Shown: in pieces, positions 11,826 through 32,579 of the stretch | How positions within the stretch are numbered: the first letter of the stretch is position 1 | Layout of the letters: each line of letters opens with the position of its first letter | Source of the DNA: Candidatus Zhuqueibacterota bacterium | GTDB taxonomy: Bacteria > BS750m-G25 | Assembly (NCBI GenBank): GCA_016783505.1 | Contig: JADHWK010000022.1 | Location: forward strand, 1-34,644 | Length of the DNA: 34,644 nt | Direction: 5' to 3' | Notes under the pieces: generated by a model | What the model was told of the DNA's origin: nothing | What the model saw: only the letters and a program-made list of their open reading frames with translations | Database searches by the model: none | Position numbers and translations under genes: made by a program

Positions 11826-14800
11826 ATGAAAGCAACAAAAGTTCTCACTATTTTTTTCTTTCTGTTCTCAGCTTATTTTGTGTTTGCTGGGACTACGGGG
11901 AAAATTGTAGGAATCATCACAGATTCTGAGAGTGGAGATCCCCTTATTGGTGTCAATGTGATCATTGAGGGGACTACCTTGGGTGCGGCCACCGATATGG
12001 ATGGATATTATGTAATCCTGAATGTTCCCCCTGGAAGGCACCACCTCAAGGCCAGCATGATGGGCTATAGGGCGGTTACCGTTACCGGCGTTCGGGTGAA
12101 TATTGATCTGACCACCTCGCAAGACATCAAGATGGCACCAATAGCTGTGGATTTGGGCGAAGTGGTGGTTGTAGCCGAGCGTCCGGTTGTTCAACCGGAT
12201 ATTTCAGCCAGTCAGGTAAATCTGAATATCAAAGACGTTGAAGCCCTTCCCGTTGTTAGTGTGGCGAGTGTTGTAGGATTAGAAGCTGGTGTTATTGACG
12301 ACTTAACGATCCGTGGTGGTGCTAGGGATCAGACAGCATTCGTGGTTGACGGTTTCACATTACGTGATGAGCGGGACAACACACCATATACTGGTATTAG
12401 CTATACGGCGGTTGATGAGATTCAAATTCAAACGGGTGGCTTTAACGCAGAATTTGGTAATATCCGCTCAGGTCTCATCAACGTTGTTACGAAAGAAGGA
12501 AGGCGAGATGGTTATCATCTGGGCTTAATAACGCGGTATAGACAGCCAGCACCAAAGCATTTCGGTCATTCAGCCGACTCACCGGAGTCCTATTGGATTC
12601 GTCCCTATGTGGATGATGCGGTTTGTTGGATGGGGACAACAAATGGCGCTTGGGACGAATACACACAAAAACAGTACGTTGAATTTGAGGGTTGGAATGC
12701 TGTATCTGAAAAGTTGCTTTTAGATGACGATCCGAATAATGATCTGACACCGGAAGCAGCCCAACGCCTTTTCATGTGGGAGCATCGAAGGGAATTGGAT
12801 ATTGTAAAACCGGATTATGATTTCGATATGAGTTTCGGCGGACCCGTTCCGTTTATTAGTGAGCCGCTTGGAAACCTTCGATTTATGGCATCTTACCGGA
12901 GGTCACAAGATATGTATATTATTCCACTTTCCGATGATGCCTATCGAGATTATAATGCACAACTAAAACTCACATCCAATCTTGCACCGGGAATGAAGCT
13001 GATGATTGAAGGAATTTTGGGGCAGGCAGCTGGCACGAATGATAACAATTCGGGCTATCCTGGGATATTCAGTGATTCTTGGAGCATTGGCAGTGCGTTG
13101 AGCAATGGTCCTAAATATATTGATGGCAGAATGTTTGGAACTGATTATTGGTGCCCCTCCAAAATTTCAAGAAATAGTATCGGCGCAAGATTTTCCCATG
13201 TGCTAAGCCCGACCACATTCTACAACGTAACCCTGCATCGGTTTGCATCCAGCTACGATACAAGTCCTGATCGTCTTCGTGATACATCCAGAGTGTATCT
13301 ATTCGGCAATAACTATTATGTGGATGAAGCGCCGTTTGGCTTTCAACCAAGCCCAAGTACTGGCATCGTTGGTTTAAGAATGGGTGTCGGGATGAGTAAT
13401 TCCCGGGATAGTAGCGAGGTTACATGGTGGTCCAGTAAATTCGATATTCATAGTCAGATTGATCGTCATAATTATATAAAGGCAGGGGTTGAGTTTATAT
13501 ATACCGATAACGCAGTCAACTACGCCTCCGTTGATGAATTCTTACCAAGCGGTCGAACAAAATCTAAATGGGAGACATATCCGGTACGGGGAGCCGTATA
13601 TGTTCAGGACAAGTTGGAGTTTGAGGGGATGATTGCGAACGTGGGCTTGCGTCTGGATTATTCGCACCCAGGTGGAGAGTGGTATGTATATGATCCCTAT
13701 GACAAGGCATTCTCAGCAAAATATTCGTTAGGGATTGACACTCTGCTCGCCAAAGAGCCGACAAAACGTATCTTTAATCTCAGTCCCCGGTTAGGAATTG
13801 CCTTTCCGATTACAGTGAATAGCAAGCTCTTTTTCAACTATGGGCATTTTAGACAAATGCCAACCCCGGAGAACCTCTATCTCCTAAGAAGAGAAACTTT
13901 AACTAATCATGTAACTCGGCTGGCAAATCCGAATAATCCACTTCCCAAAACGATCTCCTACGAATCGGGGTATGAGCATAATCTCTTTAATCAGTTCCAT
14001 GTTCGACTCATGGGCTATTATAAAGATTCGTCTCTGCAATCAAGGCTTGTGAGATATGTCAGCAGTGATAATAAGGTAAATTATAGTTTAACTGAGCCCA
14101 ACTCGTATCGGGACACCCGTGGTTTTGAACTTACAATTAGAAAGAATAGGGGGGAATGGGTTCGAGGGTTTATCAATTACACATACGAGGTGACCACATA
14201 TGGTAACTTCGGATTTTACTATTACTATGAAAATCCTGTTGAGCAGCGTAGGTATGAAAGTGAAACCCGATCCCATTACCAGGAGAAACCTATTCCCCGA
14301 CCGTATGCTCGTGCAAACATCGATTTCTTTACTCCAAAACCTTTTGGTCCTAAGTTCTTTGGAATCCATCCATTAGAAGATTGGCGATTGAACGTATTGG
14401 GAACCTGGCGATCTGGTTATCATCTTACCTGGACGGGTGGTGGAACTATTCCCGGAATAGTTAATAATGTTCAATGGAGGGACCACTATAATGTTGACCT
14501 TCGTTTGAGTAAAAGCTACCAAATAGGGGGCGCCGGTATTCAGTTTTTTATGGATGTAACGAATGTTTTCAATTTTAAATATATGACAAGATATGGTTTT
14601 GTTGATCCCATAGATTACAACGGCTATATGAAGTCTCTCCATTTACCGGCTGAAATTGGCGATGAGCTGGGTTATGGTAATATTCCTGGGGATGATCGCC
14701 CCGGGGATTATCGTACTGTTCCATATGAGCCGTACGATCCCGATGATCCAGATGAGGAGAGAAAGAAAAGGATTTTAGAAACGAAGGCTTATATAGATAT

Positions 14801-14879
14801 GCCCAATCAGCAATATCTCACCTTTCTTGACCCACGGAATATATTCTGGGGTTTGAAAGTATCTTTCGATATTAAATGA
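11826..14879 (+). CDS. TonB-dependent outer-membrane receptor 1
   Basis: The 1017-residue product has a signal peptide (1-21, ending VFA), a carboxypeptidase-regulatory-like beta-sandwich (about 22-110: GKIVGIITDSESGDPLIGVN, DMDGYYVILNVPPG, MMGYRAV), a plug domain (about 125-230, with VDGFTLRDERDNTPY and IQIQTGGFNAEFGNIRSGLI) and a long beta-barrel. Such receptors bind ligands outside and import them with energy from TonB-ExbBD, or help deliver surface proteins; no ligand can be inferred. Barrel landmarks shared with receptors 2 and 3 are DDDPNNDLTPEAAQR, YGHFRQMPT and KAYIDMPNQQY. A GGGGGAG site precedes the ATG. It is first of three genes with short gaps (38 and 32 bases), followed by its secreted partner and a PorV-like protein. 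It is not a typical SusC: no SusD neighbour is found. Confidence 0.93.
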   Translation: MKATKVLTIFFFLFSAYFVFAGTTGKIVGIITDSESGDPLIGVNVIIEGTTLGAATDMDGYYVILNVPPGRHHLKASMMGYRAVTVTGVRVNIDLTTSQDIKMAPIAVDLGEVVVVAERPVVQPDISASQVNLNIKDVEALPVVSVASVVGLEAGVIDDLTIRGGARDQTAFVVDGFTLRDERDNTPYTGISYTAVDEIQIQTGGFNAEFGNIRSGLINVVTKEGRRDGYHLGLITRYRQPAPKHFGHSADSPESYWIRPYVDDAVCWMGTTNGAWDEYTQKQYVEFEGWNAVSEKLLLDDDPNNDLTPEAAQRLFMWEHRRELDIVKPDYDFDMSFGGPVPFISEPLGNLRFMASYRRSQDMYIIPLSDDAYRDYNAQLKLTSNLAPGMKLMIEGILGQAAGTNDNNSGYPGIFSDSWSIGSALSNGPKYIDGRMFGTDYWCPSKISRNSIGARFSHVLSPTTFYNVTLHRFASSYDTSPDRLRDTSRVYLFGNNYYVDEAPFGFQPSPSTGIVGLRMGVGMSNSRDSSEVTWWSSKFDIHSQIDRHNYIKAGVEFIYTDNAVNYASVDEFLPSGRTKSKWETYPVRGAVYVQDKLEFEGMIANVGLRLDYSHPGGEWYVYDPYDKAFSAKYSLGIDTLLAKEPTKRIFNLSPRLGIAFPITVNSKLFFNYGHFRQMPTPENLYLLRRETLTNHVTRLANPNNPLPKTISYESGYEHNLFNQFHVRLMGYYKDSSLQSRLVRYVSSDNKVNYSLTEPNSYRDTRGFELTIRKNRGEWVRGFINYTYEVTTYGNFGFYYYYENPVEQRRYESETRSHYQEKPIPRPYARANIDFFTPKPFGPKFFGIHPLEDWRLNVLGTWRSGYHLTWTGGGTIPGIVNNVQWRDHYNVDLRLSKSYQIGGAGIQFFMDVTNVFNFKYMTRYGFVDPIDYNGYMKSLHLPAEIGDELGYGNIPGDDRPGDYRTVPYEPYDPDDPDEERKKRILETKAYIDMPNQQYLTFLDPRNIFWGLKVSFDIK

Positions 14880-14917
14880 GTAATGTTAATTATAGCTAAT
14901 ATAAAATTGAGGTAATT

Positions 14918-17110
14918 ATGAAAATGGTTTTTTATGAAAAACGAATTTTAGTATTGCTTTGTTTGCTTTGTATTGTAACTTTTTTGGCAGGTCCAAATGA
15001 TTCCTATGCTCAATTCGATGTTAAATGGATGTCTGTCGGCTCACTTCATAATTGGTATTCCGAAATTGGCAGTGAGATAGAACATGGGTTTCAGCCAGTT
15101 CAACAATATGGGATGCAGTGGCCGGCTATCTATGAATATCAGGATATGCAAGCAGCTAAAGCGCTTTGGATCGGTTGCCGAGATTTTACAGATGAACGGG
15201 GTGATCTTTATCCTTTCAAGGTCGCACATGTCGGTCCGCGTGTGACAGGTGCCGGGGAGTTTTTTCCTATGAGGTTTGAAATAGTAAGTCGTTTTGAACC
15301 GCCATTGGTCTATGTGGACGGCGTTCAATCATATGAAAAGACCATTGACAATGATGATGTTGATCCATTAATGAAAGCCGATCGCATGATTATTAATGTG
15401 ACAAATTGTCAGGTTGGAATTACAATGACCCGTAAGATCATACAATTTAGCCAGCAGTACCATGATAACTACATTATTTCCGATTATAATTTTACTAACA
15501 CAGGTAATGTAGATGATGACCCAGAAATAGAATTACACGATCAGACGCTAGATAGTGTTTACTTCTTCTTCCAATACCGATGGGCTGTTAGCCGAGAAAC
15601 CCGTTATTTGATCGGTAATGCGACCGGATGGGGTATAAATTTTATGCTCGATGCCCGCGGAGACGGGGTAAAGGATGATCCACAGGATGAAGATTTCCGA
15701 GCTCAATATGGCTGGCATGGGAATTATCCACCATTTACAGAATACGATAATATTGGTGCGCCTATTTGCGACCCGAGTGGCTCCGCTGGTTATATCGGTG
15801 TGGCAGATACGGTGGGACGGCTTGGTTCGGCCCAATTCGTAGGCGCAGTAACCCTCCACGCTGATACATCCCCAACCGATCCATCAGATGATCCCTCTCA
15901 ACCTTCAACAACCATCTATGAATCTTCTGATGATCCTGAAACATCACAAAATGACCCCTATAATATTGTAAAGATGGAGTCTGAGTATGGTTGGATGTCA
16001 AAGGGGCATATGTCTCCCCGCCATGCAGATGTGGTCGAACCTGAGGGAAATTTTATCGAACCAACGGGCGATCCTGCTCTTGGTACTCCCGGTGGTTTCT
16101 CAGCTTGCAATGGCTATGGGCCTTATACATTGGGGCCGGGTGACAGCATTCGTATTGTGGTGGCTGAAGGAGCTTCGGGATTAAGCCGCCAGAAATGCAT
16201 AGAAATAGGTAGAATATGGAAAAAGGCATATGATGATCCGAATGAATCATACATCTTCGAATTGCCAGATGGGTCGACTATTACTGGGAGTTATAATGAA
16301 AAAAAAGCCAATCAGTTCAAAAATACATGGGTTTATACAGGAAGAGATTCTTTGTTTCAGACATTCCGACGAGCAATAGCAAATTACGAATCAGATTATG
16401 ATATTTCGCAGCCACCACAGCAACCACTCCCGCCGAGCATATTCAATGTAAATTCCGGGGGTGATAGGATCTCACTGACTTGGGAAGTCTATAATGGTGG
16501 CCAAAACCTGAACGGATTCCAGATCTACCGGGCTAAAGGCCAATATGATAGTACCTACCACCTCATATATGAAGCAGGTCCCGATGAACGAAGTTTTGAT
16601 GATACGCAATTAGAACGGGGAGTTTCATATTATTATTACATGGTGTCAGTCGGCGATGATATTCCAGCCGACCCAGATTTAAATATTCCAGCGGGCAGGC
16701 TACGTAGCAACCGGTATTACACGCAGACATACGACCCGGCATATCTGCAACGACCGGCAGGGAAAAAATTAAGTGGCATAAGTGTCGTACCAAATCCATA
16801 TAACATCTCGGCAGATACCGATAGATTGCTATTCCCGGGCGAACCCAATAAGATTGCTTTTTTCAATATACCCGGCTATTGTACTATTAAAATCTACACT
16901 GAAATTGGTGAATTGATAAAAACGATTGAACACACTAATGGAAGGGGGGATGAATATTGGCGTTGTACGACTTCTTCCGATCAAATCGTGGTGAGCGGTA
17001 TTTATATTGCGGCTTTTACAGTAACTAAAGATTATTATGATCCAGAGACCAATGAATTATTATACAAGAAGGGGGATACCGAAATTGTAAAATTTGTAAT
17101 AATTCGGTAA
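14918..17110 (+). CDS. Secreted receptor-partner protein 1 (FnIII-like domain, VPNPYNI C-terminal module)
   Basis: This 730-residue protein has a signal peptide (about 1-32, ending SYAQ) and a large N-terminal region with no family I recognise, holding GSLHNWYSEIGSEIEHG, YNFTNTGNVDDD, YFFFQYRWAVSRE and GPYTLGPGDSIRIVVAEGAS. A fibronectin-III-like domain follows (about 504-590: GGDRISLTWEVYNG, GFQIYRAKG, YYYYMVSVGD). The last 110 residues start VVPNPYNI and end KFVIIR, resembling a T9SS sorting or FlgD-like Ig fold but lacking NYPNPFN. Two paralogues, at 21825 and 30459, share this layout and also follow a receptor. GAGGT precedes ATG 14918. Copy 1 differs by a longer loop just before the final strand. 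A surface-exposed role with the receptor is inferred from conserved pairing. Confidence 0.85.
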   Translation: MKMVFYEKRILVLLCLLCIVTFLAGPNDSYAQFDVKWMSVGSLHNWYSEIGSEIEHGFQPVQQYGMQWPAIYEYQDMQAAKALWIGCRDFTDERGDLYPFKVAHVGPRVTGAGEFFPMRFEIVSRFEPPLVYVDGVQSYEKTIDNDDVDPLMKADRMIINVTNCQVGITMTRKIIQFSQQYHDNYIISDYNFTNTGNVDDDPEIELHDQTLDSVYFFFQYRWAVSRETRYLIGNATGWGINFMLDARGDGVKDDPQDEDFRAQYGWHGNYPPFTEYDNIGAPICDPSGSAGYIGVADTVGRLGSAQFVGAVTLHADTSPTDPSDDPSQPSTTIYESSDDPETSQNDPYNIVKMESEYGWMSKGHMSPRHADVVEPEGNFIEPTGDPALGTPGGFSACNGYGPYTLGPGDSIRIVVAEGASGLSRQKCIEIGRIWKKAYDDPNESYIFELPDGSTITGSYNEKKANQFKNTWVYTGRDSLFQTFRRAIANYESDYDISQPPQQPLPPSIFNVNSGGDRISLTWEVYNGGQNLNGFQIYRAKGQYDSTYHLIYEAGPDERSFDDTQLERGVSYYYYMVSVGDDIPADPDLNIPAGRLRSNRYYTQTYDPAYLQRPAGKKLSGISVVPNPYNISADTDRLLFPGEPNKIAFFNIPGYCTIKIYTEIGELIKTIEHTNGRGDEYWRCTTSSDQIVVSGIYIAAFTVTKDYYDPETNELLYKKGDTEIVKFVIIR

Positions 17111-17142
17111 TATGAAACAAATTTAAATAAATGGGTGGTCTT

Positions 17143-18159
17143 ATGAAAAAGTATATTACTTCAACTGTAGTTGGCTGTGCGTTTTTTATGCTTCTGTCAA
17201 CGGCAGGGTTAGGTCAATTACAGAAACTAGCTCAGACTGGGATGAAATTTCTAAGCGTTTCAACCGATGCTCGTGCAAGTGCCATGGGTGATGCCGTAAC
17301 CGCGCTTGAGGGTCATTCGTCTTCAATGTTCTTCAATCCATCAGGAATGGCACGCTTGAACAGCTTTGCGAATGTCTCGCTCGGTCAAGTCAGTTGGATT
17401 GCCGATATATACTATTCTTACGGCAGTGCCGCATTTAGCCCGGCAAAAGGACATTATGGGGTCTTTGGTATTACGTTCCTGTCAGTAGATTATGGAATTT
17501 TTAAGGGAACAATAAGAGATCCCGGTGAGCAAGGGTTCAAGGACACAGGTGACTTTAGTCCCAGTGCCACGGCTATTGGATTTGGCTATGCAAAAGCACT
17601 GTCCGACAAATTCTCAGTTGGTGGTAATATCAAATATGTTACACAGAACCTCGGAAATAGCATTATTGGATTTGACTTAGATGACAACTACCTGGAAAAG
17701 AGTTATTCCGAAGATGTTTATGCCTACGATTTTGGTCTTCTTTACCGCACCGGTTTTGAGAGTCTGACTTTTGGTATGTGTATACGAAATTTCTCAGAAG
17801 AAGTAAAATATGAAGATGAAGGTTTTCAACTGCCTTTGAGTTTCAAAATTGGTCTCAGTATGAATGTTTTGGATATTTATCAGGCTTTAGACAAGAAAAC
17901 GCAATCTCTCTTGCTTTCGGTAGATGCTGTTCACCCACGTGACTACCCAGAGCAATTGAATATTGGTGCAGAATATCTGTTTATGCGGAATTTTGCCTTG
18001 CGTCTGGGATATTCGTCGCCTAATGATGAACATGGCCTCTCTGCCGGATTTGGTTTCCAGCAGACATTTCGTAATTACATGTTGGCCTTTGATTATGCAT
18101 ACACTCCGTTCGAATTGTTCAATGATGTTCATAGATTTTCTGTACATTTCTCTTTGTGA
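17143..18159 (+). CDS. PorV/PorQ-family outer-membrane protein 1
   Basis: The 338-residue product has a signal peptide (about 1-25), then the family hallmark LAQTGMKFLSVSTDARASAM, followed by FFNPSGMARL and repeated amphipathic strands ending in an aromatic-rich C-terminus (FSVHFSL), as in the PorV/PorQ (UPF0164-like) 14-strand beta-barrels. PorV carries T9SS cargo from the translocon to the attachment complex. Here it follows a partner protein with a sorting-like C-terminus, which suggests a dedicated shuttle; that is inference. I chose ATG 17143, with GGGTGG upstream, rather than ATG 17131. A paralogue lies at 24608 and a broken one at 18215. Confidence 0.88.
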   Translation: MKKYITSTVVGCAFFMLLSTAGLGQLQKLAQTGMKFLSVSTDARASAMGDAVTALEGHSSSMFFNPSGMARLNSFANVSLGQVSWIADIYYSYGSAAFSPAKGHYGVFGITFLSVDYGIFKGTIRDPGEQGFKDTGDFSPSATAIGFGYAKALSDKFSVGGNIKYVTQNLGNSIIGFDLDDNYLEKSYSEDVYAYDFGLLYRTGFESLTFGMCIRNFSEEVKYEDEGFQLPLSFKIGLSMNVLDIYQALDKKTQSLLLSVDAVHPRDYPEQLNIGAEYLFMRNFALRLGYSSPNDEHGLSAGFGFQQTFRNYMLAFDYAYTPFELFNDVHRFSVHFSL

Positions 18160-18214
18160 TCGACCGGTTTAGAGTAGTCAATCTATATAATATTAGAATA
18201 AAAACGTGGTATTA

Positions 18215-18560: not shown

Positions 18561-21500
18561 ATGAGAATAACAAAAGTTTTAGCCATTTTTTTCTTTCTGT
18601 TCTCAGCTTATTTTGTGTTTGCTGGGACTACGGGGAAAATTGCCGGCAGGGTATTTGATGAAGACACCGGGGATCCTCTGCCCGGGGCTAATATTATCGT
18701 AGTGGGGACTACCATGGGGGCTATGGGGGACATGAACGGGGAATATTTTATTATCAATATCCCCCCGGGTAAGTATACGGTTAAGGTGACCATGATGGGA
18801 TATAAGGCCATGGTAGTGGAGAATGTGCGGGTCAGCATTGATATTACCACCTCCCAGGATTTTGCACTGCCGGCGACCATTGTGGACATCGGTGAAGAGG
18901 TGACCATTATAGCCGACCGTCCGGTTATTCAACCGGACGTTGCCGCAAGCCTGAGGAATATTAGTTCCAGTCAAATAGAAGCGCTGCCAGTAACGACGGT
19001 TACAGAAGTCATTGGTCTTCAAGCTGGTATTACTTCTGCTCTTGGAATTCGCGGGGGCAGTTCAGACGAGGCGCTTTTTATGGTTGATGGAATTGCTCTA
19101 AGGGACGAAAGAAATAATCAGCCCATTACCAAAATCCCTTTAAGTGCCGTAAAGGAAATTTCAGTTCAGACGGGGGGGTTTAACGCTGAATATCATAATG
19201 TTCGTTCCGGTGTTGTCAATATTGTTGCCAAAGAAGGAGACCCCAAGTATTATAGTGGAACGATCACAATCAAATACGGTCCTCCGGCGTCAAAACATTT
19301 TGGGATTTCCCCATATGATCCCAATTCCTTTTGGCTCCGTCCCTATCTGGACCCCGATGTCTCCTGGACTGGAACCTCAGGCGAAACCTACGATGACCTG
19401 AATTCGAACGGTGACTGGGATGAGGAAGAACCCTTTGTTGATTACAACGGAGACGGTGAGTGGACAGGATGGGACAAATATACACAGAGACAATATCCCC
19501 CGTTCGATGGTTGGAATGCCGTCTCTAACCGCACCTTACAAGATGATGATCCCACCAATGATCTTACCCCGGAAGCAGCTCAACGAATCTATCTCTGGGA
19601 GAAACGCAAAGAGGGGCATATTACAAAACCGGATTATAATGTAGACTTAGGATTTGGCGGTCCGGTACCCGTTATTAGCGAAAGGTTGGGGAATCTCCGG
19701 TTTTATACCTCATTTCGGAAAGAGCAAAATATGTATCTTATCCCCCTTTCCCGGGATGCCCTTACAGATCGTAGCTGGATGACTAAATTAACATCTGACA
19801 TTACCCCGTCTATGAAATTAACAGTATTGGGACTTTATGGAGAAACGTATGCCGCCGCATTTTCCAGATCCGGGGGGACCTCCTACATGGAAGATACCTG
19901 GGATGTAGCCAGCACAATTGACCGAGCAGGTCATACTATCACCTGGAGATTATTTACCAATGATTATTGGTGTCCCACATCCCGTTATTATAATGCGGTA
20001 TCAGCTAAGCTTACGCACGTGCTCAATCCCAGCACTTTTTATGAGGTTCTTCTAAAACGCGTTGGGAAAAAATATCATACTTTACCAGGTCGCCACCGTG
20101 ATCGGACAAAAAAATACGAGATTTTTGAAGGGTACTTTGTTGATGAGGCCCCTTTTGGGTTCGATGAAGACCCTGTTTGGGGCATTGATGGCATGGGGAT
20201 GGGGGGGTCGGTCAGTACATCACGGGATACTAGCGAAATTATCACCACCACAGCCAAATTTGATTTCGTAAGTCAAATAAATCACAATAATCAGATAAAA
20301 ACCGGCCTTGAATTTGTTTACGATGATTTCGACATGAAGTTTGGGATGGTAAATTTGGTTTTACCCGAAGGCAACACCTGGACATCAATCGAAAGAAAAC
20401 CATATAGAGGAAGCATCTATCTACAGGATAAAATCGAGTATAAGGGATTCATTTCTACCATTGGATTGAATATGGAATACAGTAATCCAAATGGGAATTG
20501 GTATGTTGTAGATATTTATGACCGCGGTCTCTATTCATCGGATTATAAATCTGAAGATGAACCAAATATTAACATGAAAAAAGCTAAATCAACCATTACC
20601 CTAAGTCCACGTCTGGCCGTATCCCATCCAATTACCCAAAACTCAAAGCTCTATTTTAATTATGGACATTTCAGACAAATGCCAACTTCTGAACGTCTTT
20701 ACAGGGTTCAAAGGGATGTAACTAATAAAATAGACTATATTGGCGATCCCACCCTGCCGCTTGCTAAAACAGTAGCCTATGAACTGGGATACGATCAAGC
20801 CCTTTTTAATATTTATCTGTTGCACCTGGCAGCATATTATAAAGACATTTCCGACCAGGAAGACTGGACCCGATATATTAGCTGGGATGGTAAGGTAAAT
20901 TATCGAACATTGACCAGTAATAGCTATGAAGATATTCGTGGCTTCGAAATTGATCTCACAAAGATGAGGGGAAGATGGATGACAGGAAATGTTAACTATG
21001 AATACAGGGTGGGGACGTCCGGCTATTTTGGCTTGAAAGAATACAATGAAAATCCGGTAGATCAACGAAATTATTTGCGGCAAAATCCTTATCAGGAAAA
21101 GCCTCTACCAAGGCCCAGAATTAAATCTAATATAGATTTTCACACCCCGCCTGATTTCGGTCCAAAATTGGCCGGACAAAGACCCTTAGGTGGCTGGCAT
21201 TTGAACTTTATAGCGAGATGGACTGCTGGTTCGTGGTTTACGTGGAATCCAAATAATATAGCGGGAATCGAATATAATGTTCAGTGGAAAGACTATCATA
21301 ATGTTGATCTTAAAATGTCAAAAACATTTCCCTACGGAAATGTTAAATTAACATTCTTTATGGATGTTAATAATCTGTTTAACGTAAAAGATTTTTCCGG
21401 AGAATCTTTTTATGATTCCCATGATTATGATTACTACATGGAGTCGTTGCATCTGCCCGCCAGCATTGGGGATGAACTGGGATACGGTAACATTCCCGGT

Positions 21501-23961: not shown

Positions 23962-24549
23962 ATGATGTCTACCAATTTTATTAAAAAACTTGTCGCCTTG
24001 GTTGTCTGTATCCCGCTTATTGTTTTGCTTATTAGTTGTGAGGAATATCAAGAGGAAGATTTTACCATCGCAGACATGGATGCTAGAGCCTGTGAGCTTT
24101 TTGAGGATACTGTGAGCGTTAAAATCCCTAGATTTCCATTGGTTAGTTTCGACTCAACCTGGGTGGACTCTGCGGTTTATGAAAATGTACTCGAAATATT
24201 AGATTCTTTAGAAGCAAATGAAATAATAGTAACGGATAGCGACACGAGCTTTACAATCACCACGGCGGAAAACGTTGAGATGTATTATATTTGTTTCTTT
24301 ACGGAACTGAACGAAGTGGTAATTTTCTCCAATTATTTTACGGACATGAATATTATAGATGCAGATGGAACTGTTATTAATAAAGAAAGTAGTGTAATTT
24401 CGCTGGAAACAGTCGCTGGTTGCTCTGAAATAAGAACTCGTAATGTTTATAATCTTTCAGAACGGAAGAATTTGCTGCAAATTGTAAAGATTGAGTCGGA
24501 TCAGACGGGGGGAAAACCTTTTCTACTGGTGATTTTACCGAGTCATTAA
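23962..24549 (+). CDS. Small secreted lipoprotein of receptor locus 2
   Basis: The 195-residue product has a signal peptide with lipobox LISC (Cys26), then a mostly acidic beta-rich domain (FTIADMDARACELFEDTVSV, MYYICFFTELNEVVIFSNYF) with two further cysteines. I recognise no family. AAGGAG precedes tandem ATGs at 23962 and 23965. It lies between partner 2 and PorV 2 with short gaps, so it is probably in the same operon; loci 1 and 3 have no counterpart. Confidence 0.75.
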   Translation: MMSTNFIKKLVALVVCIPLIVLLISCEEYQEEDFTIADMDARACELFEDTVSVKIPRFPLVSFDSTWVDSAVYENVLEILDSLEANEIIVTDSDTSFTITTAENVEMYYICFFTELNEVVIFSNYFTDMNIIDADGTVINKESSVISLETVAGCSEIRTRNVYNLSERKNLLQIVKIESDQTGGKPFLLVILPSH

Positions 24550-24607: not shown

Positions 24608-25591
24608 ATGAGAAAGAAAATCTTAAGCTTTATTGTGATAATTTTGGCTATTACCCTGGTTATATCAAATGGTTACTCACAAAAAAAATTGGCACAGACC
24701 GGATTTCAGTTTTTGAGCATAGGGCAAGATGCTCGGGCATCCGCCATGGGTGAAGCGTTCACAACCGTCGAAGGGGTTTCCAGCGCCCTTTTTCACAACC
24801 CTGCGGGGATGGCAAGGCTTTCCTCTTTCGTGGATGTGGCTGCCAGCCAAAACAATTGGATTGCAGATATTAAACACAACTCTCTCAGCATCGCATTGAA
24901 TCCCTTGCAGGGAAGATATGGTGTGTTTGGCATCAGTGCGATGTGGGTGGACTATGGGGAAATCCAGGGGACTATGGTTTGGGAAAACGTAGATGGTTAT
25001 ATAGATACGGAGGTATTTGAACCTAAAGCAATTGCTGTTGGGATAGGTTATGCCAAGTATTTAACCGATAGATTTGCAGTAGGAGGACAAATTAAGGAAG
25101 TCGCCCAGTCTTTGGGAAAAAGTGTTATACCTGAAGAAGGGGCTAAAAAGAATATCGCCTCGGCTTTGGCATTTGATTTTGGCACCATATATCGAACGGG
25201 CTTTAAGAGTTTATCTTTTGGTATGTCAGTCCGCAATTTTTCAGAAGAACTGAAATTTGAAAAAGAGGGTTTTCAGCTCCCCCTCACTTTTAAAATTGGT
25301 GTTTCAATGGATGTATTTGATTTTTACATGAAAATGCCTGAGGGACATTCTCTTCTGATGGTCATGGATGCAGTTCATCCGCGGTCATATCCGGAATATA
25401 TTAATTGGGGCGCTGAATATTTATTTATGGACATGTTTGCCTTAAGGGCAGGATATGTGTCCAATCAAGATGAATACGGTTTGACCTATGGTTTTGGCAT
25501 GCAGAAATTTGGGTTGGCAATCAATTATGCATACACCTCGTTTGGCGTTTTTGATCCTGTTCAAAGATTCACCATTCGATTTTCGATATAG
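24608..25591 (+). CDS. PorV/PorQ-family outer-membrane protein 2
   Basis: The 327-residue product has a signal peptide (about 1-24) followed by QKKLAQTGFQFLSIGQDARA, FHNPAGMARLSSFVDVAASQ and a barrel-type alternation ending FTIRFSI. It is a clear paralogue of PorV 1 (17143) and is closer to the broken copy at 18215, which shares the GFQ-x-x-S residues. TTGGAGGG precedes the ATG. It could act as the T9SS shuttle for partner 2 or as an outer-membrane porin-like component; only membership of the family is firm. Confidence 0.88.
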   Translation: MRKKILSFIVIILAITLVISNGYSQKKLAQTGFQFLSIGQDARASAMGEAFTTVEGVSSALFHNPAGMARLSSFVDVAASQNNWIADIKHNSLSIALNPLQGRYGVFGISAMWVDYGEIQGTMVWENVDGYIDTEVFEPKAIAVGIGYAKYLTDRFAVGGQIKEVAQSLGKSVIPEEGAKKNIASALAFDFGTIYRTGFKSLSFGMSVRNFSEELKFEKEGFQLPLTFKIGVSMDVFDFYMKMPEGHSLLMVMDAVHPRSYPEYINWGAEYLFMDMFALRAGYVSNQDEYGLTYGFGMQKFGLAINYAYTSFGVFDPVQRFTIRFSI

Positions 25592-25616: not shown

Positions 25617-26819
25617 ATGAAGAAAGTTATTGTGGTTATCGTTATGTTGTCCCTTGCCATATTCTTTGTTGCAGGGTGTGAGCCTGATTATCCCGACAGC
25701 GTTTGGGATCCAGATTATCAGGGTAAACCAGATCCCATCATAACCGGTGTTGAGCCCGATAGTGCCCTAGCTGGAATTGATACTGTTAGAATAATAGGTG
25801 AAAACTTTTCCCCGGAAGTAGGGGAAAATCATGTCTCTTTTGATGGTAACAAAGCGACCACTTTATCAGCTACTGATACTGTAGTCACTGTGCTCACACC
25901 TAATGTAGTTGGGGACTCCTTGAGAATCCAACTGCGTGTGGATGACGCTATTTTATTTGATTATTATTATCCTTACAAGCTTGAACCAGCGGTAATTGAA
26001 TATGGTGGCTTTGGCGATTTCGATTATGTTTCGGGTTTAGCCTGTGATCTCTCAGAAAATATCTATGTTTTGAGTCAGACTGAGGATGTTATTAAGGTTA
26101 CCCCTGAGGGAGAGCAAATCGTACATGGTACCAATATCTTCATTACTACTCCTGGTATGAAAATTGGACTAGGGGGGTATTTGTACATATTAAGGGGTAA
26201 TAAGAAGGTTTATCGAATTCTCCCAGAGGGTGGTTCTGAAAGTAGTTGGGTAACCCTTTCAGGCAAAGTTTCTGATATTGATTTTGATTCAAACGGAATT
26301 CTTTATGCTGCTGGAAAGGGGGACTCCATTTATAGTATCAAGTCCGATGGTTCATTTTTTGGAGCAGCGGCTTATATTGACTATAATATAATCAGTGTAC
26401 GGGTATACGAGCCTTATGTATACGTGGCAGGAAAATATGAGGGTACTGATACGACCGAAGGTATTTGGCGTAATCGTATAATCTCCTCCGAAGGTGAGCT
26501 TGATGATAACGAACTTGTGTTTGATTGGGGCAATTATGTAGGGGAAGATGGTCCTTCAATACTATCAATTACTTTTTCAGAGACAGGTGAACTGTATATA
26601 GGTCAAGATAAAGAAGATGCTATTACCATATACTCGCTCGCAACTGAAACTACCAGAATACTGTATCCAGGCATATTGTACCCACCTGCTACTTATATGT
26701 GCTGGGGTAATGGAGATTACCTGTATGTGAATCGGCATGATGAGGAAGTCGTTTCCAAAAGGCGTATTATGAGGATAAACATGAAATTAAAAGGAGCACC
26801 CTATTTCGGTCGGCAGTAG
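25617..26819 (+). CDS. Lipoprotein with IPT/TIG domain and beta-propeller-like repeats
   Basis: The 400-residue product has a lipobox VAGC (Cys21). Residues about 37-120 form an IPT/TIG Ig-like domain (PIITGVEPDSALAGIDTVRI, ENFSPEVGENHVSFDG). From about 125 onward, repeated blades such as VSGLACDLSENIYVLSQTED, DIDFDSNGILYAAGKGDSIY and ITFSETGELYIGQDKEDAIT resemble an NHL/SMP-30-type beta-propeller. Such surface lipoproteins often bind glycans or proteins; the ligand is unknown. The start at 25617 follows AAGGAGA and gives a proper signal peptide; the longer frame from 25488 overlaps the PorV 2 coding region and is rejected. It closes locus 2, and a 559-bp noncoding gap follows. Confidence 0.85.
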   Translation: MKKVIVVIVMLSLAIFFVAGCEPDYPDSVWDPDYQGKPDPIITGVEPDSALAGIDTVRIIGENFSPEVGENHVSFDGNKATTLSATDTVVTVLTPNVVGDSLRIQLRVDDAILFDYYYPYKLEPAVIEYGGFGDFDYVSGLACDLSENIYVLSQTEDVIKVTPEGEQIVHGTNIFITTPGMKIGLGGYLYILRGNKKVYRILPEGGSESSWVTLSGKVSDIDFDSNGILYAAGKGDSIYSIKSDGSFFGAAAYIDYNIISVRVYEPYVYVAGKYEGTDTTEGIWRNRIISSEGELDDNELVFDWGNYVGEDGPSILSITFSETGELYIGQDKEDAITIYSLATETTRILYPGILYPPATYMCWGNGDYLYVNRHDEEVVSKRRIMRINMKLKGAPYFGRQ

Positions 26820-27005: not shown

Positions 27006-27087
27006 CCAGAACCTATCTAAAGATAAGGTTCTGGTTAATGTTTTGTTTAGCAATTAGTTAACCAGAACCGCTCTTTAGAGCGGTTCT
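27006..27087 (+). other. Chain of mutually exclusive hairpins downstream of locus 2
   Basis: Four segments can pair in sequence. Segment 1 (27006-27018, CCAGAACCTATCT) pairs with segment 2 (27021-27034, AGATAAGGTTCTGG) with one bulge. Segment 2 extended (27027-27038, GGTTCTGGTTAA) pairs perfectly over 12 bases with segment 3 (27058-27069). Segment 3 extended (27064-27074, AGAACCGCTCT) pairs perfectly with segment 4 (27077-27087). So 1:2, 2:3 and 3:4 compete, the topology of attenuators and riboswitch platforms. No T run follows segment 4. Confidence 0.5.
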
Positions 27088-27148
27088 AAACATAACCCCT
27101 AAATTATCAATTACGATAGTTCTGCAACAGACCCGCCCGACTAAATGG

Positions 27149-27330
27149 ATTCCTGCTTTAAAAACTGTCGGCCCCAAAGGTCTTGGGACCCGAAGGGTCT
27201 TGCCTGCCCGTAGGCGGATCACTCAGACGAGCCGTATGGCCGACCGGTCCGCCGTGCCCGGTCCCAAGATCGCTTTGCGACTAGGGTAGGAGGCTACGCT
27301 CCCAGGGGGAAACGATCTGGGGACAGGAAT
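27149..27330. repeat. GC-rich structured block before receptor locus 3
   Basis: This stretch is distinctly richer in G and C than its neighbours. ATTCCTG (27149-27155) and CAGGAAT (27324-27330) are inverted ends. Inside, TCTTGGGACC (27181-27190) is a perfect inverted match to GGTCCCAAGA (27260-27269), extended by CAAAG (27175-27179) and CTTTG (27273-27277); inside that, GGCGGA (27213-27218) pairs with TCCGCC (27248-27253). It may be a small nonautonomous repeat or a structured RNA. The remainder of the 26820-27378 gap shows no credible reading frame or promoter. Confidence 0.45.
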
Positions 27331-27378
27331 GACAAGGGGTCAACTGTTACAATAATTGGATATTAACCTTCCGCGATA

Positions 27379-30300
27379 ATGGAAATTTATTCTACAAAGA
27401 GATCCCTCCTGTTGGGGATCTTTGTCCTTCTGTTTTTGCCTTATTCTGCATTTGCCGGGATTACCGGAAAGATTGCCGGTCGAATTACCGATGCTGACAA
27501 TGGTGAAGGGCTTCCAGGTGTAAATGTAATCATCGAAGGACTGGCGATAGGGGCGGCAACGGGTATTAATGGCTACTACGTAATCCTGAATGTCCCCCCC
27601 GGGACTTATACGCTCAAGGCTTTAATGATGGGTTATACGACTGTAACCACAACGCACGTCCGTGTCGTTATGGATCTTACCACAACCATTGACTTTCAGA
27701 TGCATTCAGAAGTATTGGACATTGGTGAAGTAACAGTCGTCGCCGAACGCCCAGTGGTTGCCCCCGATATTTCAGCCAGCCAGATGAATGTGGAAGCCAA
27801 GACGATAGAAAACCTGCCCGTTGTAAGTATTTCCGAGGTCGTTGAGCTTCAAGCTGGTATTGAAGCCGGCACTCAAGGACCGGTTATTCGTAGTGGTGGC
27901 CCTCATCAGACAGCATTTATTGTGGACGGATTCAAACTTAACGATGAGCGGTCCAACATCCCCTACACTGCTGTCAGCTTGAGTTCGGTTAAGGAAGTGC
28001 AGATACAGACCGGAGGATTTAACGCAGAATATGGTAACATGCGTTCAGGTGTCATCAATGTTGTCACTAAAGAAGGGGAACGCAATCGTTACGGTGGACG
28101 TGTTACCCTTCGTTATCGCCCCCCCGCCCCAAAACATTTCGGCCCTTCAGTCTATGATCCTGATACATATTTCACCCGTCCCTATATGGACCCTGCTGTC
28201 TGTTGGACTGGTACTGCAAATAGTGCTTGGGATTCATATACTCAACGTCAGTATCCGAGCTTTGAAGGCTGGAATGCGATCTCGGTGGCCACCTTGCAAG
28301 ACGCTGATCCAACAAATGACCTTACACCCGAAGGGGCAAAGCGCTTGTGGGAGTGGCAGCATCGTCGGCAGGGTGATATTGTAGACCCTGATTACACCGT
28401 TGATGTCGGTTTTGGGGGGCCAATCCCCTTTATCAGTGAAAAGCTTGGGAACCTACGATTCTACGCTTCCCATCGCACCGAACGGGATATGTTCATTTTC
28501 CCCCTTTCTCGTGATAGTTATAATGATAGTTTTACGCAGCTTAAACTTACTGCTAACATAAGTCCTATGATGAAATTGATTTTCACCGGGATGTATGGTG
28601 AAACCCATTCTGTTTCCCCGTATCAATGGAAAACTACTCCAACCGAACGAGTTCTAAGAACTCCCTATGAAGTTGCTGATTATGTAAGCAGCAGTTCCGG
28701 GAATAGTAACATATATATGCCCGGATGGTTTAGTCCTACCTTAATTAACCGGAATATTATCGGGCTAAAATTTAACCATGTGTTGAGTTCGAGAACATTT
28801 TATGAAATAATTGTTCAAAATAATATAAATAGATACAATACATTTAAAATGGCGGATCGTGATACGACAAAGAATAATGAGATTATTCCCGGCTATTATG
28901 TTGATGAGGCACCTTACGGTTATTGGGGATATGGTGTCACCGGTATTGATGGTATGAGGATAGGGGGATGGATGAATTTAGGTCGGGATTCAAGTGTGAT
29001 TAAAACAACTACTCTCCGCTTTGATTTCACAAGTCAATTAAATAATACTAATCAGTTCAAAACTGGTTTAGAAATTGTCTATAATGATTACGACATCAAG
29101 TCATCTACAGAAAATCCTTCCATGAGTACCTGGCGTCGAAAACAGGTCTATGAGATTTTTCCTTATAGAATTGGTGCCTATGTTCAGGATAAACTGGAAT
29201 TTCAAGGATTTATTGCCAACGTCGGCGTACGACTAGATTATTCCGATGCCAACTCCATGCGCTATCAATTGGACCCCTATGATGAATATTTCAGTCAGGG
29301 TTTTGGAGACTTAATAGAGCCAGAGGCACCCACCGAAGATGCGAAACCCAGTTTGAGTTTGAGTCCACGCCTCGGGGTTGCCCACCCCATTACCGTAAAT
29401 TCCAAGTTGTATTTCAACTACGGCCATTTTCGTCAAGAACCCGCTTCCTCTTACAGATTTCGGCTTCAGAGAGAAGCCAATGGCCTGGTAACGTCAATAG
29501 GAGACCCCAACCTTGAAACGGAAAAAACGGTGTCTTATGAATTAGGATACGAGCATGCGCTTTTCAATGATTATTTGCTCCACTTGGCAGCATATTATAA
29601 AGACGTTACAAATCAGCCTGGCTGGGTTTATTATCAAGACATCAAGAATGCGGTGCAGTATGATAGGGCTGCTAATAATAACTACGAAGACATCCGCGGA
29701 TTTGAGGTAACTTTGACTAAACGTGTTGGAAGCTGGATTGGCGGTTTTATCAATTATACGTATGATGTTCGGACATCCGGATATTTCGGTTTGACAAAAT
29801 ACTATGAGGATCCCCAGGAGCAGCGGGACTATTTGAGATTAAATCCCTATCAGGAAAAACCACATCCACAACCTTATGCTCGAGCAAATTTAGACTTGCA
29901 TACCCCCGACAATTTTGGTCCTGGGTGGTTAGGTTTTAAACCATTAGGTGATTGGAATTTGAATATTTTAACAAACTGGTCAGCCGGGACTTATACAACT
30001 TACAATCCGAATCAAATACCTGGATTGGTTGATAATGTTCAGTGGAAAGATAGACACAATATTGACTTGCGATTTTCAAAAAATATTAAGGTAAGTAAAT
30101 ACAATTTTCAATTCTTTTTGGATGTTACGAACGCTCTCAATAATAAATTCCTTAGCTATGCCGGTTTCTCAGATAACTATGATTATCTTGATTATATGGA
30201 ATCATTGCATTTCTCTTGGGAAGATGGAGTTGAACACGGTAACGATAGGGTGGGTGAATACCGTAAAGAGGGTGTTGATTATGAACCGTATGATCCCACC

Positions 30301-30432
30301 GATCCGACAAAAACCCGAGAAGATTTACAGAGGATATTAGATACCAAAGCCTATATTGATATGCCCAATTTAACCTATTTCACCTTTCTCAATCCGCGGG
30401 ATATTACATTCGGCATTAAAATATATTTCTAA
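27379..30432 (+). CDS. TonB-dependent outer-membrane receptor 3
   Basis: The 1017-residue product has its own distinct signal peptide (1-26, ending AFA), a carboxypeptidase-regulatory-like domain (GKIAGRITDADNGEGLPGVN, YYVILNVPPGTYTLKALMMG), a plug (FIVDGFKLNDERSNIPY, VQIQTGGFNAEYGNMRSGVI) and a barrel that ends in the terminal Phe of KIYF. It shares with receptors 1 and 2 the WNAIS..LQDADPTNDLTPE, FGGPIPFISEKLGNLRF, DEAPYGY and KAYIDMPNLTYFTFLNPRD blocks. Unlike the other two, its upstream region has neither the cdsA tail nor the conserved promoter, and no good ribosome site precedes the ATG. The partner gene starts 26 bases after the stop. Confidence 0.92.
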   Translation: MEIYSTKRSLLLGIFVLLFLPYSAFAGITGKIAGRITDADNGEGLPGVNVIIEGLAIGAATGINGYYVILNVPPGTYTLKALMMGYTTVTTTHVRVVMDLTTTIDFQMHSEVLDIGEVTVVAERPVVAPDISASQMNVEAKTIENLPVVSISEVVELQAGIEAGTQGPVIRSGGPHQTAFIVDGFKLNDERSNIPYTAVSLSSVKEVQIQTGGFNAEYGNMRSGVINVVTKEGERNRYGGRVTLRYRPPAPKHFGPSVYDPDTYFTRPYMDPAVCWTGTANSAWDSYTQRQYPSFEGWNAISVATLQDADPTNDLTPEGAKRLWEWQHRRQGDIVDPDYTVDVGFGGPIPFISEKLGNLRFYASHRTERDMFIFPLSRDSYNDSFTQLKLTANISPMMKLIFTGMYGETHSVSPYQWKTTPTERVLRTPYEVADYVSSSSGNSNIYMPGWFSPTLINRNIIGLKFNHVLSSRTFYEIIVQNNINRYNTFKMADRDTTKNNEIIPGYYVDEAPYGYWGYGVTGIDGMRIGGWMNLGRDSSVIKTTTLRFDFTSQLNNTNQFKTGLEIVYNDYDIKSSTENPSMSTWRRKQVYEIFPYRIGAYVQDKLEFQGFIANVGVRLDYSDANSMRYQLDPYDEYFSQGFGDLIEPEAPTEDAKPSLSLSPRLGVAHPITVNSKLYFNYGHFRQEPASSYRFRLQREANGLVTSIGDPNLETEKTVSYELGYEHALFNDYLLHLAAYYKDVTNQPGWVYYQDIKNAVQYDRAANNNYEDIRGFEVTLTKRVGSWIGGFINYTYDVRTSGYFGLTKYYEDPQEQRDYLRLNPYQEKPHPQPYARANLDLHTPDNFGPGWLGFKPLGDWNLNILTNWSAGTYTTYNPNQIPGLVDNVQWKDRHNIDLRFSKNIKVSKYNFQFFLDVTNALNNKFLSYAGFSDNYDYLDYMESLHFSWEDGVEHGNDRVGEYRKEGVDYEPYDPTDPTKTREDLQRILDTKAYIDMPNLTYFTFLNPRDITFGIKIYF

Positions 30433-30458
30433 TTTGCCTTAACCCTGGTAAAATATAA

Positions 30459-32579
30459 ATGATAGATAACCTAAAAAAGAATTTTGTATTGAAAGTTTTT
30501 TTTTGGCTCGGCATTGGGTTTTTGGTTTTTGGTCAATTTGTTCCGGTTTCTGCCCAGGTCGGCGAGACTGAAAAGAGATATATTCGAATCGGGTCTCTGC
30601 AGAGCCATTTTTCGGCTTATGGCTCAGAACGGGCCTGGAACAATGTGTATTATGAAGGGTTGAGATGGCCGGCTGATTATCCTTATCAGGATAATTCCGT
30701 TATTAAGCGCTCCTGGATAGCTGCCCAGGATTTCACCGATGCAGATGGACAGGACTGGAGTGTGTATGGAATCTATTTCGCCATGGGTTATGTTGGTCTA
30801 TCCTTATTTCCCATGGAGCTAAAACAGACGGCCAAATTTGAGCCGCCCACCGTCTATGTTGACGGTAAGAATTTAACCGCACCCTATGCCGACGACGTTG
30901 ATGAAATCAATCCGGATCAGATACCCGATCGGATCGTTACCAATGTGGTGAATACCTCGCTCGGTCTTACCATGACCCGGCGCATCTTAGCTTTCAGTCA
31001 GCAGTACCACGATAATTATTTTATTAAGGAATTTACGTTTACCAATACGGGTAATGTAGATTCTGACACATTAATCGAACTGAATGCACCGTTAACAGGG
31101 GTACGAATAGGCTGGGGTACTCGCTACAGCGTATCTCGCGAGGGCTCATTTAAAATAGGTGATGGACAATCCTGGGGTAAACATTCATGGGTTACCAGGC
31201 GTGGCGAGGATTACCCTGCCCATGCATCTGATATAATAACTGAACAAAATCCGATTGTGGAATGGCTTCGCTGCGGTTTTAGCTGGGCCGGACAGTCGGA
31301 AATCAATGCATTTGACAACATCGGTGCTCCTGATATTTCCGGCACTGGACGACTATGTGCGCCGCAGCATGTCGGCACCGTTTGTTTGCATATTGACAAG
31401 AGCGCAACCGATACGACCGATGACCCCTACCAGCCTGTTTTTTTGGGTTGGCATGCAGGCGACACCTATCCAAGTGTAGGTAATTTGCAAACGTCAGACG
31501 AAATTAATATGATTAAGTTATACGACATGTTAAGCGGATTTCCACATATGGGTTTAGGCGGTACCGATCGGATGGATGAAACGTATTTAGAATCCATAAC
31601 ACATAGATTAGATCCTTATACTATTCACAATGATGGTGGCGGAACAAATGTAATGATTTGTTACGGGCCTTTTGATTTGCAGCCGGGTGAAAGTATCACC
31701 ATCGTTGAAGCCGAAGGGATTTCCGGTATTTGTCGTGATTCCTGTTATTCAATTGGCGCAAAATGGCTTGCTGGTGTAGGACCCTTCCATTTACCAAAAG
31801 GCTATGACCCTTCAACAACTAATGATGCCGATTATTATAAAAATGCCTGGGTATATACAGGTAAAGATTCCATATTATTGACGTTTGGGAGGGCCAAACG
31901 CAATTTCGACATGGGCTACGATATTCCACAACCACCATTGCCTCCGCCCTTGTTCGATGTGAAATCAGGGGGTGATCGAATTAGTCTTTCATGGAGCCCA
32001 TCCGAAAGTGAAGATTACCCAGGTTTTGCAGGATATAAAATTTATCGGGCTCTCAGCAAACCAGATACTACACATGATGAAATAGCCACCTTAGGACCGG
32101 GTATTACCTCTTTCGATGATATGACAGCGGATCGCGGCAAAGCCTATTATTACTATATTGTTTCTTTTAACGATGGCTCTAACAACACTGCGGAGGAAGC
32201 AAATCCTGTTGGGCCTCTGTACAGTAGCCGATTTTATACCAAAACCACCGAACCCGCCTATTTGCGTCGTCAAGCTGGGGAATCGCTGTCAGATATTCGT
32301 GTGGTTCCGAACCCTTATAACATTAAAGCCCGTGATTTGCAGTATCCTGGCGAGCCGGACAAAATTATGTTTTTAGACATCCCTGCCTATTGTACTATTA
32401 AAATATTTACAGAACGGGGTGATTTAATTCAAACCATCGAACATACTGATGGCAGCGGAGATGAGGAATGGAATTCGATCACTTCATCCCGACAGGTGGT
32501 TGTCAGTGGTATTTATATCGCACATTTCGAAACGCCTGATGGCCAAAGCATCTATAGGAAATTTGTTATCATTCGATAA
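30459..32579 (+). CDS. Secreted receptor-partner protein 3
   Basis: The 706-residue product has a signal peptide (about 1-32, ending VSAQ) and the layout of partners 1 and 2: GSLQSHFSAYGSE, EFTFTNTGNVDSD, FGPFDL-type GPFDLQPGESITIVEAEGIS, WVYTGKDSILLTFGRAKRNF, a fibronectin-III-like domain (about 500-590) and the C-terminal module from VVPNPYNIKARDLQYPGEPD to RKFVIIR. The FFFQYR block of partners 1 and 2 is replaced here by VRIGWGTRYSVSREG. No PorV gene follows in this copy. No strong ribosome site is seen before ATG 30459, so its translation may depend on the receptor gene. Confidence 0.85.
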   Translation: MIDNLKKNFVLKVFFWLGIGFLVFGQFVPVSAQVGETEKRYIRIGSLQSHFSAYGSERAWNNVYYEGLRWPADYPYQDNSVIKRSWIAAQDFTDADGQDWSVYGIYFAMGYVGLSLFPMELKQTAKFEPPTVYVDGKNLTAPYADDVDEINPDQIPDRIVTNVVNTSLGLTMTRRILAFSQQYHDNYFIKEFTFTNTGNVDSDTLIELNAPLTGVRIGWGTRYSVSREGSFKIGDGQSWGKHSWVTRRGEDYPAHASDIITEQNPIVEWLRCGFSWAGQSEINAFDNIGAPDISGTGRLCAPQHVGTVCLHIDKSATDTTDDPYQPVFLGWHAGDTYPSVGNLQTSDEINMIKLYDMLSGFPHMGLGGTDRMDETYLESITHRLDPYTIHNDGGGTNVMICYGPFDLQPGESITIVEAEGISGICRDSCYSIGAKWLAGVGPFHLPKGYDPSTTNDADYYKNAWVYTGKDSILLTFGRAKRNFDMGYDIPQPPLPPPLFDVKSGGDRISLSWSPSESEDYPGFAGYKIYRALSKPDTTHDEIATLGPGITSFDDMTADRGKAYYYYIVSFNDGSNNTAEEANPVGPLYSSRFYTKTTEPAYLRRQAGESLSDIRVVPNPYNIKARDLQYPGEPDKIMFLDIPAYCTIKIFTERGDLIQTIEHTDGSGDEEWNSITSSRQVVVSGIYIAHFETPDGQSIYRKFVIIR

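Follow-up and report, generated by a model that had tools for sequence, protein, structure and literature searches.

A TonB-dependent receptor, a partner with a divergent type IX sorting domain and a PorV/PorQ-family barrel belong to an undescribed gene set of several bacterial phyla

In this study, we analysed a window of 34,644 nucleotides, the whole stretch examined of contig JADHWK010000022.1 from Candidatus Zhuqueibacterota bacterium (assembly GCA_016783505.1). Our findings reveal that a TonB-dependent receptor (TBDR), a partner protein, a PorV/PorQ-family barrel and a lipoprotein constitute an undescribed gene set of several phyla; no published description was found in the open-access literature searched. 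Because it is conserved across these phyla, the set looks like a widespread surface system in the role of SusD-type lids, and the pairing of TBDR and partner is far beyond chance. Judging from sequence, we lean, a little beyond even confidence, toward an operon for a cell-surface receptor unit, in which a barrel-held partner exported by the type IX secretion system (T9SS) would work with the TBDR, probably for uptake.

Organization of the locus

The initial annotation described three TBDRs, each followed in the same order and on the same strand by a partner of about 700 aa, and this arrangement holds, with gaps of 38, 30 and 26 bases. As a definition of the unit, however, the receptor/partner pairs were too narrow, since the operon also contains two PorV/PorQ-family barrels, two lipoproteins and an NHL-propeller T9SS protein:

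11826-14879, + strand: TBDR type I, 1017 aa, with an N-terminal CarboxypepD_reg-like extension, plug and 22-strand barrel (Pfam, AF2, tree)
14918-17110, + strand: partner type I, 730 aa, with signal peptide, predicted supersandwich and helical linker, Fn3 domain and divergent T9SS C-terminal sorting domain (CTD)
15008-16417, + strand: N-terminal module of partner I, residues ~31-500, predicted beta-supersandwich and helical linker (VIA-align)
16418-16750, + strand: Fn3 domain of partner I, residues ~501-611 (hmmsearch against PDB 3mpc)
16751-17107, + strand: VPNPY-class T9SS CTD of partner I, residues ~612-730 (hhalign; PorZ CTD matches)
17131-18159, + strand: PorV/PorQ-family outer-membrane barrel, likely shuttle or anchor (NF033709)
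18561-21794, + strand: TBDR type II, 1077 aa (Pfam, tree)
21825-23915, + strand: partner type II, GTG start behind AAAGGAGGT
23962-24549, + strand: small lipoprotein, 195 aa, LLISC lipobox (sequence; homologues in type II loci)
24608-25591, + strand: second PorV/PorQ-family outer-membrane barrel (NF033709)
25617-26819, + strand: IPT/TIG and NHL-propeller-like lipoprotein, FFVAGC lipobox (PF01833, 35.3 bits)
27379-30432, + strand: TBDR type III, 1017 aa (Pfam, tree)
30459-32579, + strand: partner type III, 706 aa (sequence, tree)
32840-34162, + strand: NHL/SBBP-propeller-like protein with a type A T9SS sorting domain (PF18962, 29 bits against 27)

An Rfam scan of the window found no RNA family, and promoter and terminator scans gave a signal no better than chance. 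The proteins had been described as strongly diverged, yet partners II and III share 50 and 44% identity with partner I, and receptors II and III 51 and 51% with receptor I, so that we call their divergence moderate. Likewise, the three tandem copies are indeed three pairs, but a recent tandem duplication is rejected, as the trees resolve three old subfamilies.

Conservation and co-divergence

We compared the locus with 78 public loci of Ignavibacteriota, Balneolota, Calditrichota, KSB1 and Marinimicrobia. A TBDR lies immediately upstream, on the same strand, of 88 of the 91 partner relatives with enough upstream DNA, in five phyla (median gap 22.5 nt); the pair is thus widely conserved beyond the present genome, and confinement to it, the outcome that the initial annotation had named as telling against its proposal, is not what we observe. 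Partner types I, II and III form three clades, each spanning phyla, and the same types reappear as clades in the receptor tree (support 100, 99 and 100%), with no swap of type among 74 typed pairs, which bears out the earlier suggestion that the partners are co-selected. TBDR-partner distances correlate at 0.90, or 0.76 once the barrel's share is removed, against a partial correlation of 0.12 between partner and PorV-like barrel, and paralogue matching of receptors to partners succeeded in 91/91 cases. Conserved linkage of this kind could also fit operon co-inheritance without a physical complex.

The distribution is near that of a single-copy core, a genome having about one old locus and between one and three divergent types of receptor; the partner family also occurs in cultured organisms, Stygiobacter and Melioribacter among them. 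Glycan-specific loci typically show fast turnover; an old locus present about once in each genome, its subtypes spread over phyla, fits a core function better.

Fold and sorting signal of the partner

A Pfam search of the three partners yielded no family match, SusD included, and SusD_RagB had no match in this genome, whose assembly is just 59.9% complete. Among 96 partner homologues, 4 have a lipobox-like motif, about the background level of the receptors (5/85). In the AF2 model of partner I (pLDDT 93.7) residues 31-420 are mainly beta strands, not the alpha-helical, TPR-type fold of SusD, a comparison that concerns the fold content of the model and does not count SusD's absence from the structure hit list. 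Thus, on family, lipobox and fold content, a SusD-like lid is rejected, and the earlier view of the partners as neither lipoproteins nor SusD stands.

The N-terminal region had been considered unrecognised, which is true of Pfam but not of its fold: the first ~470 residues are predicted to form a beta-supersandwich and helical linker, as precedes the catalytic barrel in GH94/GH116-type enzymes (VIA-align Z 17-18.7 over 250-290 residues, rmsd 3.0-4.4, 7-11% identity). At such identity, this modelled likeness is no proof of sugar binding. Matches to GH enzyme structures lie mainly over the N-terminal domain, and the partner I model has no catalytic (alpha/alpha)6 barrel, the linker helix running into Fn3 and then the CTD; a catalytic glycosidase is rejected for this reason. 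The Fn3-like domain noted before was recovered (3mpc, E 5.4e-5, hmmsearch against PDB).

The VPNPYNI module at the C-terminus had also been seen, although its identity as a sorting domain was missed. Against 29 type A CTD proteins of this genome it aligns to the last residue (hhalign probability 97.3%, E 2.3e-11), whereas Fn3 and the N-module, run as controls, reach just 0.3-0.4%. By this profile comparison we assign it as a divergent T9SS CTD, homologous to type A, which under curated cut-offs has no PF18962 match and scores 16 bits against 23 for TIGR04183. The CTD of PorZ is among its nearest solved relatives, the Foldseek match to PorZ stemming from a whole-chain partner search.

SprA is encoded in this genome (672 bits, cut-off 200) and the SprA/Sov translocon was found in 30/30 related genomes, SusD in just 11 of the 30 tested; since these 11 possess both SusD and the T9SS partner, replacement of the former everywhere is rejected. 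A search for GldM gave no match here, and none in the controls either. Partners with a VPNPY CTD adjoin a TBDR in 83/83 decidable cases, whereas none adjoins the two decidable partners whose CTD is type A, nor the C29 protein of this genome. A PorV-family gene follows 3/4 non-partner genes with a VPNPY CTD, versus 3/94 type A genes.

Receptors, barrels and lipoproteins

The three receptors carry CarbopepD_reg_2 and Plug domains in Pfam, the latter at 22-35 bits, with two of the three above the cut-off of 23.9. Receptor I, modelled with AF2 at pLDDT 88.8, has 22 assigned strands and, with its plug, the build of a TBDR; its Foldseek matches are TBDRs, SusC among them (PhuR, E 1.8e-22). Against TIGR04056 (SusC/RagA) the receptors score 44-59 bits, short of the curated 368. 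Receptor loop 1 (residues 240-329) is better conserved than the barrel strands.

Both outer-membrane barrels exceed the cut-off of 90 bits for NF033709, with 202 (17131-18159) and 196 bits (24608-25591). They reach 90/101 and 81/94 bits with NF033710/NF033711 (cut-offs 250/220), and are not PorV or PorQ proper, the PorQ score lying above the PorV score; the family profile matches the PorV structure 6h3i (E 4.5e-17). Such a barrel is encoded at most 2 kb downstream of 66/81 partners. Type III pairs often use the same barrel as type II, so a strict rule of one barrel per partner is rejected.

The IPT/NHL-propeller lipoprotein is close by in 37/41 loci, and its homologues are mostly lipoprotein-like (60/65); in relatives, the next gene is often the NHL/SBBP-propeller T9SS protein. 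The small 195-aa lipoprotein is typical of type II loci. Its homologues are all lipoprotein-like (9/9), and in several loci the gene is flanked by those of the partner and the PorV-like barrel.

Known systems and proposed function

The unit resembles several known systems, each in part. As in SusC-SusD of Bacteroidota, a TBDR with a carboxypeptidase-like N-terminal extension has a dedicated, co-encoded surface partner and further surface lipoproteins downstream; yet the partner here is a beta-rich, T9SS-type protein, while SusD is an alpha-helical lipoprotein, the receptors fall far under the SusC/RagA cut-off, and a PorV/PorQ-family barrel belongs to the unit. The vitamin B12 complexes BtuB-BtuG (PMC10404256) also combine a TBDR with a non-SusD surface lid, and a propeller-type lipoprotein is present in the operon described here, but BtuG is a lipoprotein and neither T9SS cargo nor PorV-like barrel takes part. 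In P. gingivalis, PorQ-PorZ, part of the attachment complex, is a case in which a PorV/PorQ-family barrel keeps a surface protein with a T9SS CTD at the outer membrane (PMC5562754), and partner CTD and barrels here score toward PorZ and PorQ; PorZ, on the other hand, contains two beta-propellers and functions in A-LPS attachment, the N-terminal fold of our partner is another, and its constant neighbour is a TBDR. Type B CTD cargos are similarly linked to the genes of their own PorP/SprF-like barrels, the cognate barrel setting the final location of the cargo (PMC12618676, PMC9143113), but here the CTD is type A-related, the barrel belongs to the PorV/PorQ family and the set includes a TBDR as well. 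Finally, GH94/GH116/GH65-type enzymes share the N-terminal beta-supersandwich and helical linker (Z about 18), with the (alpha/alpha)6 barrel missing here and Fn3 and T9SS CTD instead.

We propose that the partner, made with a signal peptide, would be routed by its VPNPY-class CTD through the SprA/Sov translocon. The operon's own PorV/PorQ-family barrel, to judge from gene linkage and CTD class, would then collect it by the CTD and retain it at the outer membrane, as PorQ does with PorZ or cognate barrels do with type B cargo. Held over or beside the TBDR of its own type, the partner may use its non-catalytic supersandwich to capture a substrate that is probably carbohydrate or glycoconjugate in nature. 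The TBDR would import this substrate using TonB energy, and the IPT/NHL-propeller lipoprotein could help as an accessory binder. Each of the three types would have its own putative ligand. The alternatives raised by the initial annotation, a lid for import or a machine for display, merge in part: T9SS and barrel most likely display the partner, and the TBDR would use the displayed protein.

Other functions can nonetheless be envisaged. The partner might be a surface adhesin or coat protein held by the barrel, with the adjoining TBDR merely co-regulated, given the partner's Fn3 and beta-sandwich build, the missing catalytic domain, the single old locus per genome and the fact that type B barrel-held cargos of F. 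johnsoniae are adhesins (PMC12618676). We consider this unlikely, as the perfect match of types in 74 pairs and their tight co-divergence exceed what co-regulation would give, and two TonB pairs stay together even where the PorV-like gene moves. The TBDR could instead serve not nutrient import but the export or positioning of the partner, delivering a surface protein with a structural or adhesive role; in Myxococcus the TBDR Oar is needed for secretion of PopC (PMC6434023), and the partner co-diverges more tightly with its receptor than with the barrel. However, a T9SS-type CTD and SprA in the genomes provide another export route, and there are orphan relatives of the partner, with type A CTDs, that have no TBDR at all, which makes this reading quite improbable.

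The relationship to PorZ, the PorQ-leaning barrels and the core-like distribution could also point to an outer-membrane export, assembly or quality-control module (PorQ-PorZ-like or BAM-accessory-like) that serves other T9SS cargo and is not an uptake receptor. This seems improbable for a unit with no PorU-like gene, whose TBDR retains two features typical of importers, the plug and the carboxypeptidase-like extension. The occurrence of between one and three divergent types of receptor in a genome also suggests that there are several ligands. Extending the receptor-unit reading, we tentatively suggest, as a possibility we would not yet favour, an ancient class of importers within the wider FCB group, an outer-membrane complex composed of a TBDR, a T9SS-cargo lid (a glycosidase-derived, catalytically empty supersandwich) and a dedicated PorQ-like barrel to which the lid docks as its tether, with three receptor/lid types, which would do the work of SusCD where SusD is often missing.

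Implications

If the proposed receptor unit is correct, TonB-dependent uptake and type IX secretion, so far treated apart, would become joined, and the partner of a surface receptor could be other than a lipoprotein. A protein family unmatched in Pfam would gain a function and an address code, a VPNPY CTD with its own barrel. The unit would also account for the additional PorV-like genes and TBDRs kept in genomes of Ignavibacteriota, Calditrichota, KSB1 and Marinimicrobia, where SusD is scarce or absent.

Receptor-Partner Units and Their Conservation

The window, one entire contig of a 2.51 Mb genome that is 59.9% complete, carries three TonB-dependent receptors (TBDRs), each followed directly by a partner protein of ~700 aa, and gene coordinates bear out the positions at which the initial annotation had placed the three pairs. 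Its unit of receptor plus partner holds for the pairs themselves; its extent was drawn too narrowly, since barrels, lipoproteins and a propeller-like protein also belong to it.

Genes of the receptor-partner region
11826-14879, TBDR of pair 1
14918-17110, partner of pair 1
17131-18159, PorV/PorQ-family barrel after pair 1
18561-21794, TBDR of pair 2
21825-23915, partner of pair 2 (GTG start at 21825, preceded by AAAGGAGGT)
First gene after pair 2, small lipoprotein
24608-25591, second PorV/PorQ-family barrel, after the small lipoprotein of pair 2
From 25617, IPT/TIG and NHL-propeller-like lipoprotein, pair 2 region
27379-30432, TBDR of pair 3
30459-32579, partner of pair 3
After pair 3, propeller-like protein with a type A sorting domain of the type IX secretion system (T9SS)

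Receptor and partner lie 38, 30 and 26 bases apart in pairs 1, 2 and 3, with identities to the first copy of 44-50% for partners and 51% for receptors. Unrelated to the pairs, a 905-aa protein (7623-10340) combines Golvesin_C, ASH/HYDIN-like Ig domains and a type A sorting domain. The gene set recurs in 78 public loci from Ignavibacteriota, Balneolota, Calditrichota, KSB1 and Marinimicrobia, in the order TBDR, partner, (small lipoprotein), PorV-like barrel, IPT/NHL lipoprotein, NHL/CTD protein. Adjacency outside this genome, a check named in the initial annotation, is thus kept: among the closest 80 of 205 relatives, and so for close relatives only, 88 of 91 partners have a TBDR directly upstream (median gap 22.5 nt), 66/81 are followed by a PorV-like gene no more than 2 kb downstream (75/81 if a PorV-like gene just ahead of the TBDR is also accepted), and 37/41 loci have the IPT/NHL lipoprotein close by, with none elsewhere in the flanks of the examined loci.

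The pairs were also described as three tandem copies with co-selected partners. The copies instead represent three old clades (I, II and III). In the tree, built from 76 partners, the members of each clade come from several phyla, and each clade has one partner in the window. The co-adaptation pattern stands: the receptor tree recovers the same three groups (support 99-100%), and comparison of both trees reveals no type swap among 74 typed pairs. Receptor and partner distance matrices correlate at 0.90 (0.76 after removal of the barrel's contribution); paralogues matched across loci with two pairs agree in 91/91 comparisons. The barrel tracks type I strictly; types II and III have a barrel in common. 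At the sequence level, such congruence and correlated distances are the pattern given by co-inherited, co-adapted partners, by itself no proof of contact. Across the receptor family, the first extracellular loop (residues 240-329, 90 residues, of the receptor at 11826-14879) is more conserved than the strands (0.69 vs 0.62 within this one family), as would be expected of a docking surface. This ranking is seemingly unusual for a TBDR.

Partner Architecture and Sorting Class

The N-terminus, initially unrecognised, can now be placed. In an AlphaFold2 model with 90 homologues (pLDDT 93.7), the stretch from residue 31 to about residue 500 superposes on a beta-supersandwich with its helical linker, as seen in GH94, GH116 and related enzymes (Z 17-18.7 over 250-290 residues, rmsd 3.0-4.4, identity 7-11%). 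The catalytic (alpha/alpha)6 barrel is absent from the model, its place taken by the initially noted Fn3 domain (E 5.4e-5) and the VPNPYNI module. From this modelled fold, a carbohydrate or glycoconjugate ligand is plausible. The C-terminal module (VPNPY CTD) aligns, right through to its final residue, with type A sorting domains from this genome (probability 97.3%, E 2.3e-11; Fn3 and N-terminal control profiles, only 0.3-0.4%); scoring under curated cut-offs, it is assigned to a divergent class of T9SS sorting domain. Most of the 30 related genomes also encode partner-like proteins of a more remote family (roughly 150-400 bits, ~690-760 aa), as well as many frames of 1000-1250 aa with a VPNPY-class CTD at their end.

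SprA/Sov, the T9SS translocon, is found in this genome, and SprA in 30/30 related genomes; SusD occurs in 11/30. A PorV_fam scan of the genome gave 18 matches, about a dozen genes being above cut-off. Together with 68 type A matches, and at 60% completeness, this is heavy T9SS investment. Partner-family proteins with a VPNPY CTD adjoin a TBDR in 83/83 decidable cases, those with a type A CTD in 0/2. On contig C29 (L120:5793-10397), a 1534-aa protein joins the partner's N-terminal module and Fn3 to a pectate-lyase/PMP-like region and ends in a canonical type A CTD (43.5 bits); no TBDR lies beside it, and its neighbors are on the other strand. A PorV-like gene comes next in 3/4 non-partner VPNPY genes, the remaining case being a cut fragment, and in 3/94 type A genes. 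Contig C44 (L122:1-5209) carries another triad: TBDR, a 785-aa Fn3 and VPNPY CTD protein whose N-terminus is unrelated to the partner's, and a PorV-like barrel.

Proposed Mechanism

Most likely, the partner would be exported by T9SS, retained by a barrel and placed at the service of its TBDR. Export is supported by CTD homology and genome content; an Oar-like route, with the TBDR itself exporting the partner (PMC6434023), seems quite improbable. After T9SS export, the operon's PorV/PorQ-like barrel would take up the partner via its CTD and retain it at the surface, as supported by gene linkage and by two precedents: PorZ is held by PorQ (PMC5562754), and cognate barrels determine the destination of type B CTDs (PMC12618676, PMC9143113). 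The PorZ CTD was among the module's matches in three separate searches, and the unit might be a PorQ/PorZ-like accessory for secretion or the envelope, which we consider unlikely. Nor do we favor, at similarly low probability, an adhesin whose TBDR is merely co-regulated. Under the preferred scheme of export and barrel retention, we infer that the surface-held partner would serve its own TBDR in substrate capture and uptake, a step likened to SusCD and modelled on BtuB-BtuG (PMC10404256).

Every single element has precedent. The combination as proposed, a TBDR with a partner that T9SS delivers and a barrel tethers, did not turn up in the open-access literature searched; it is widespread and testable.
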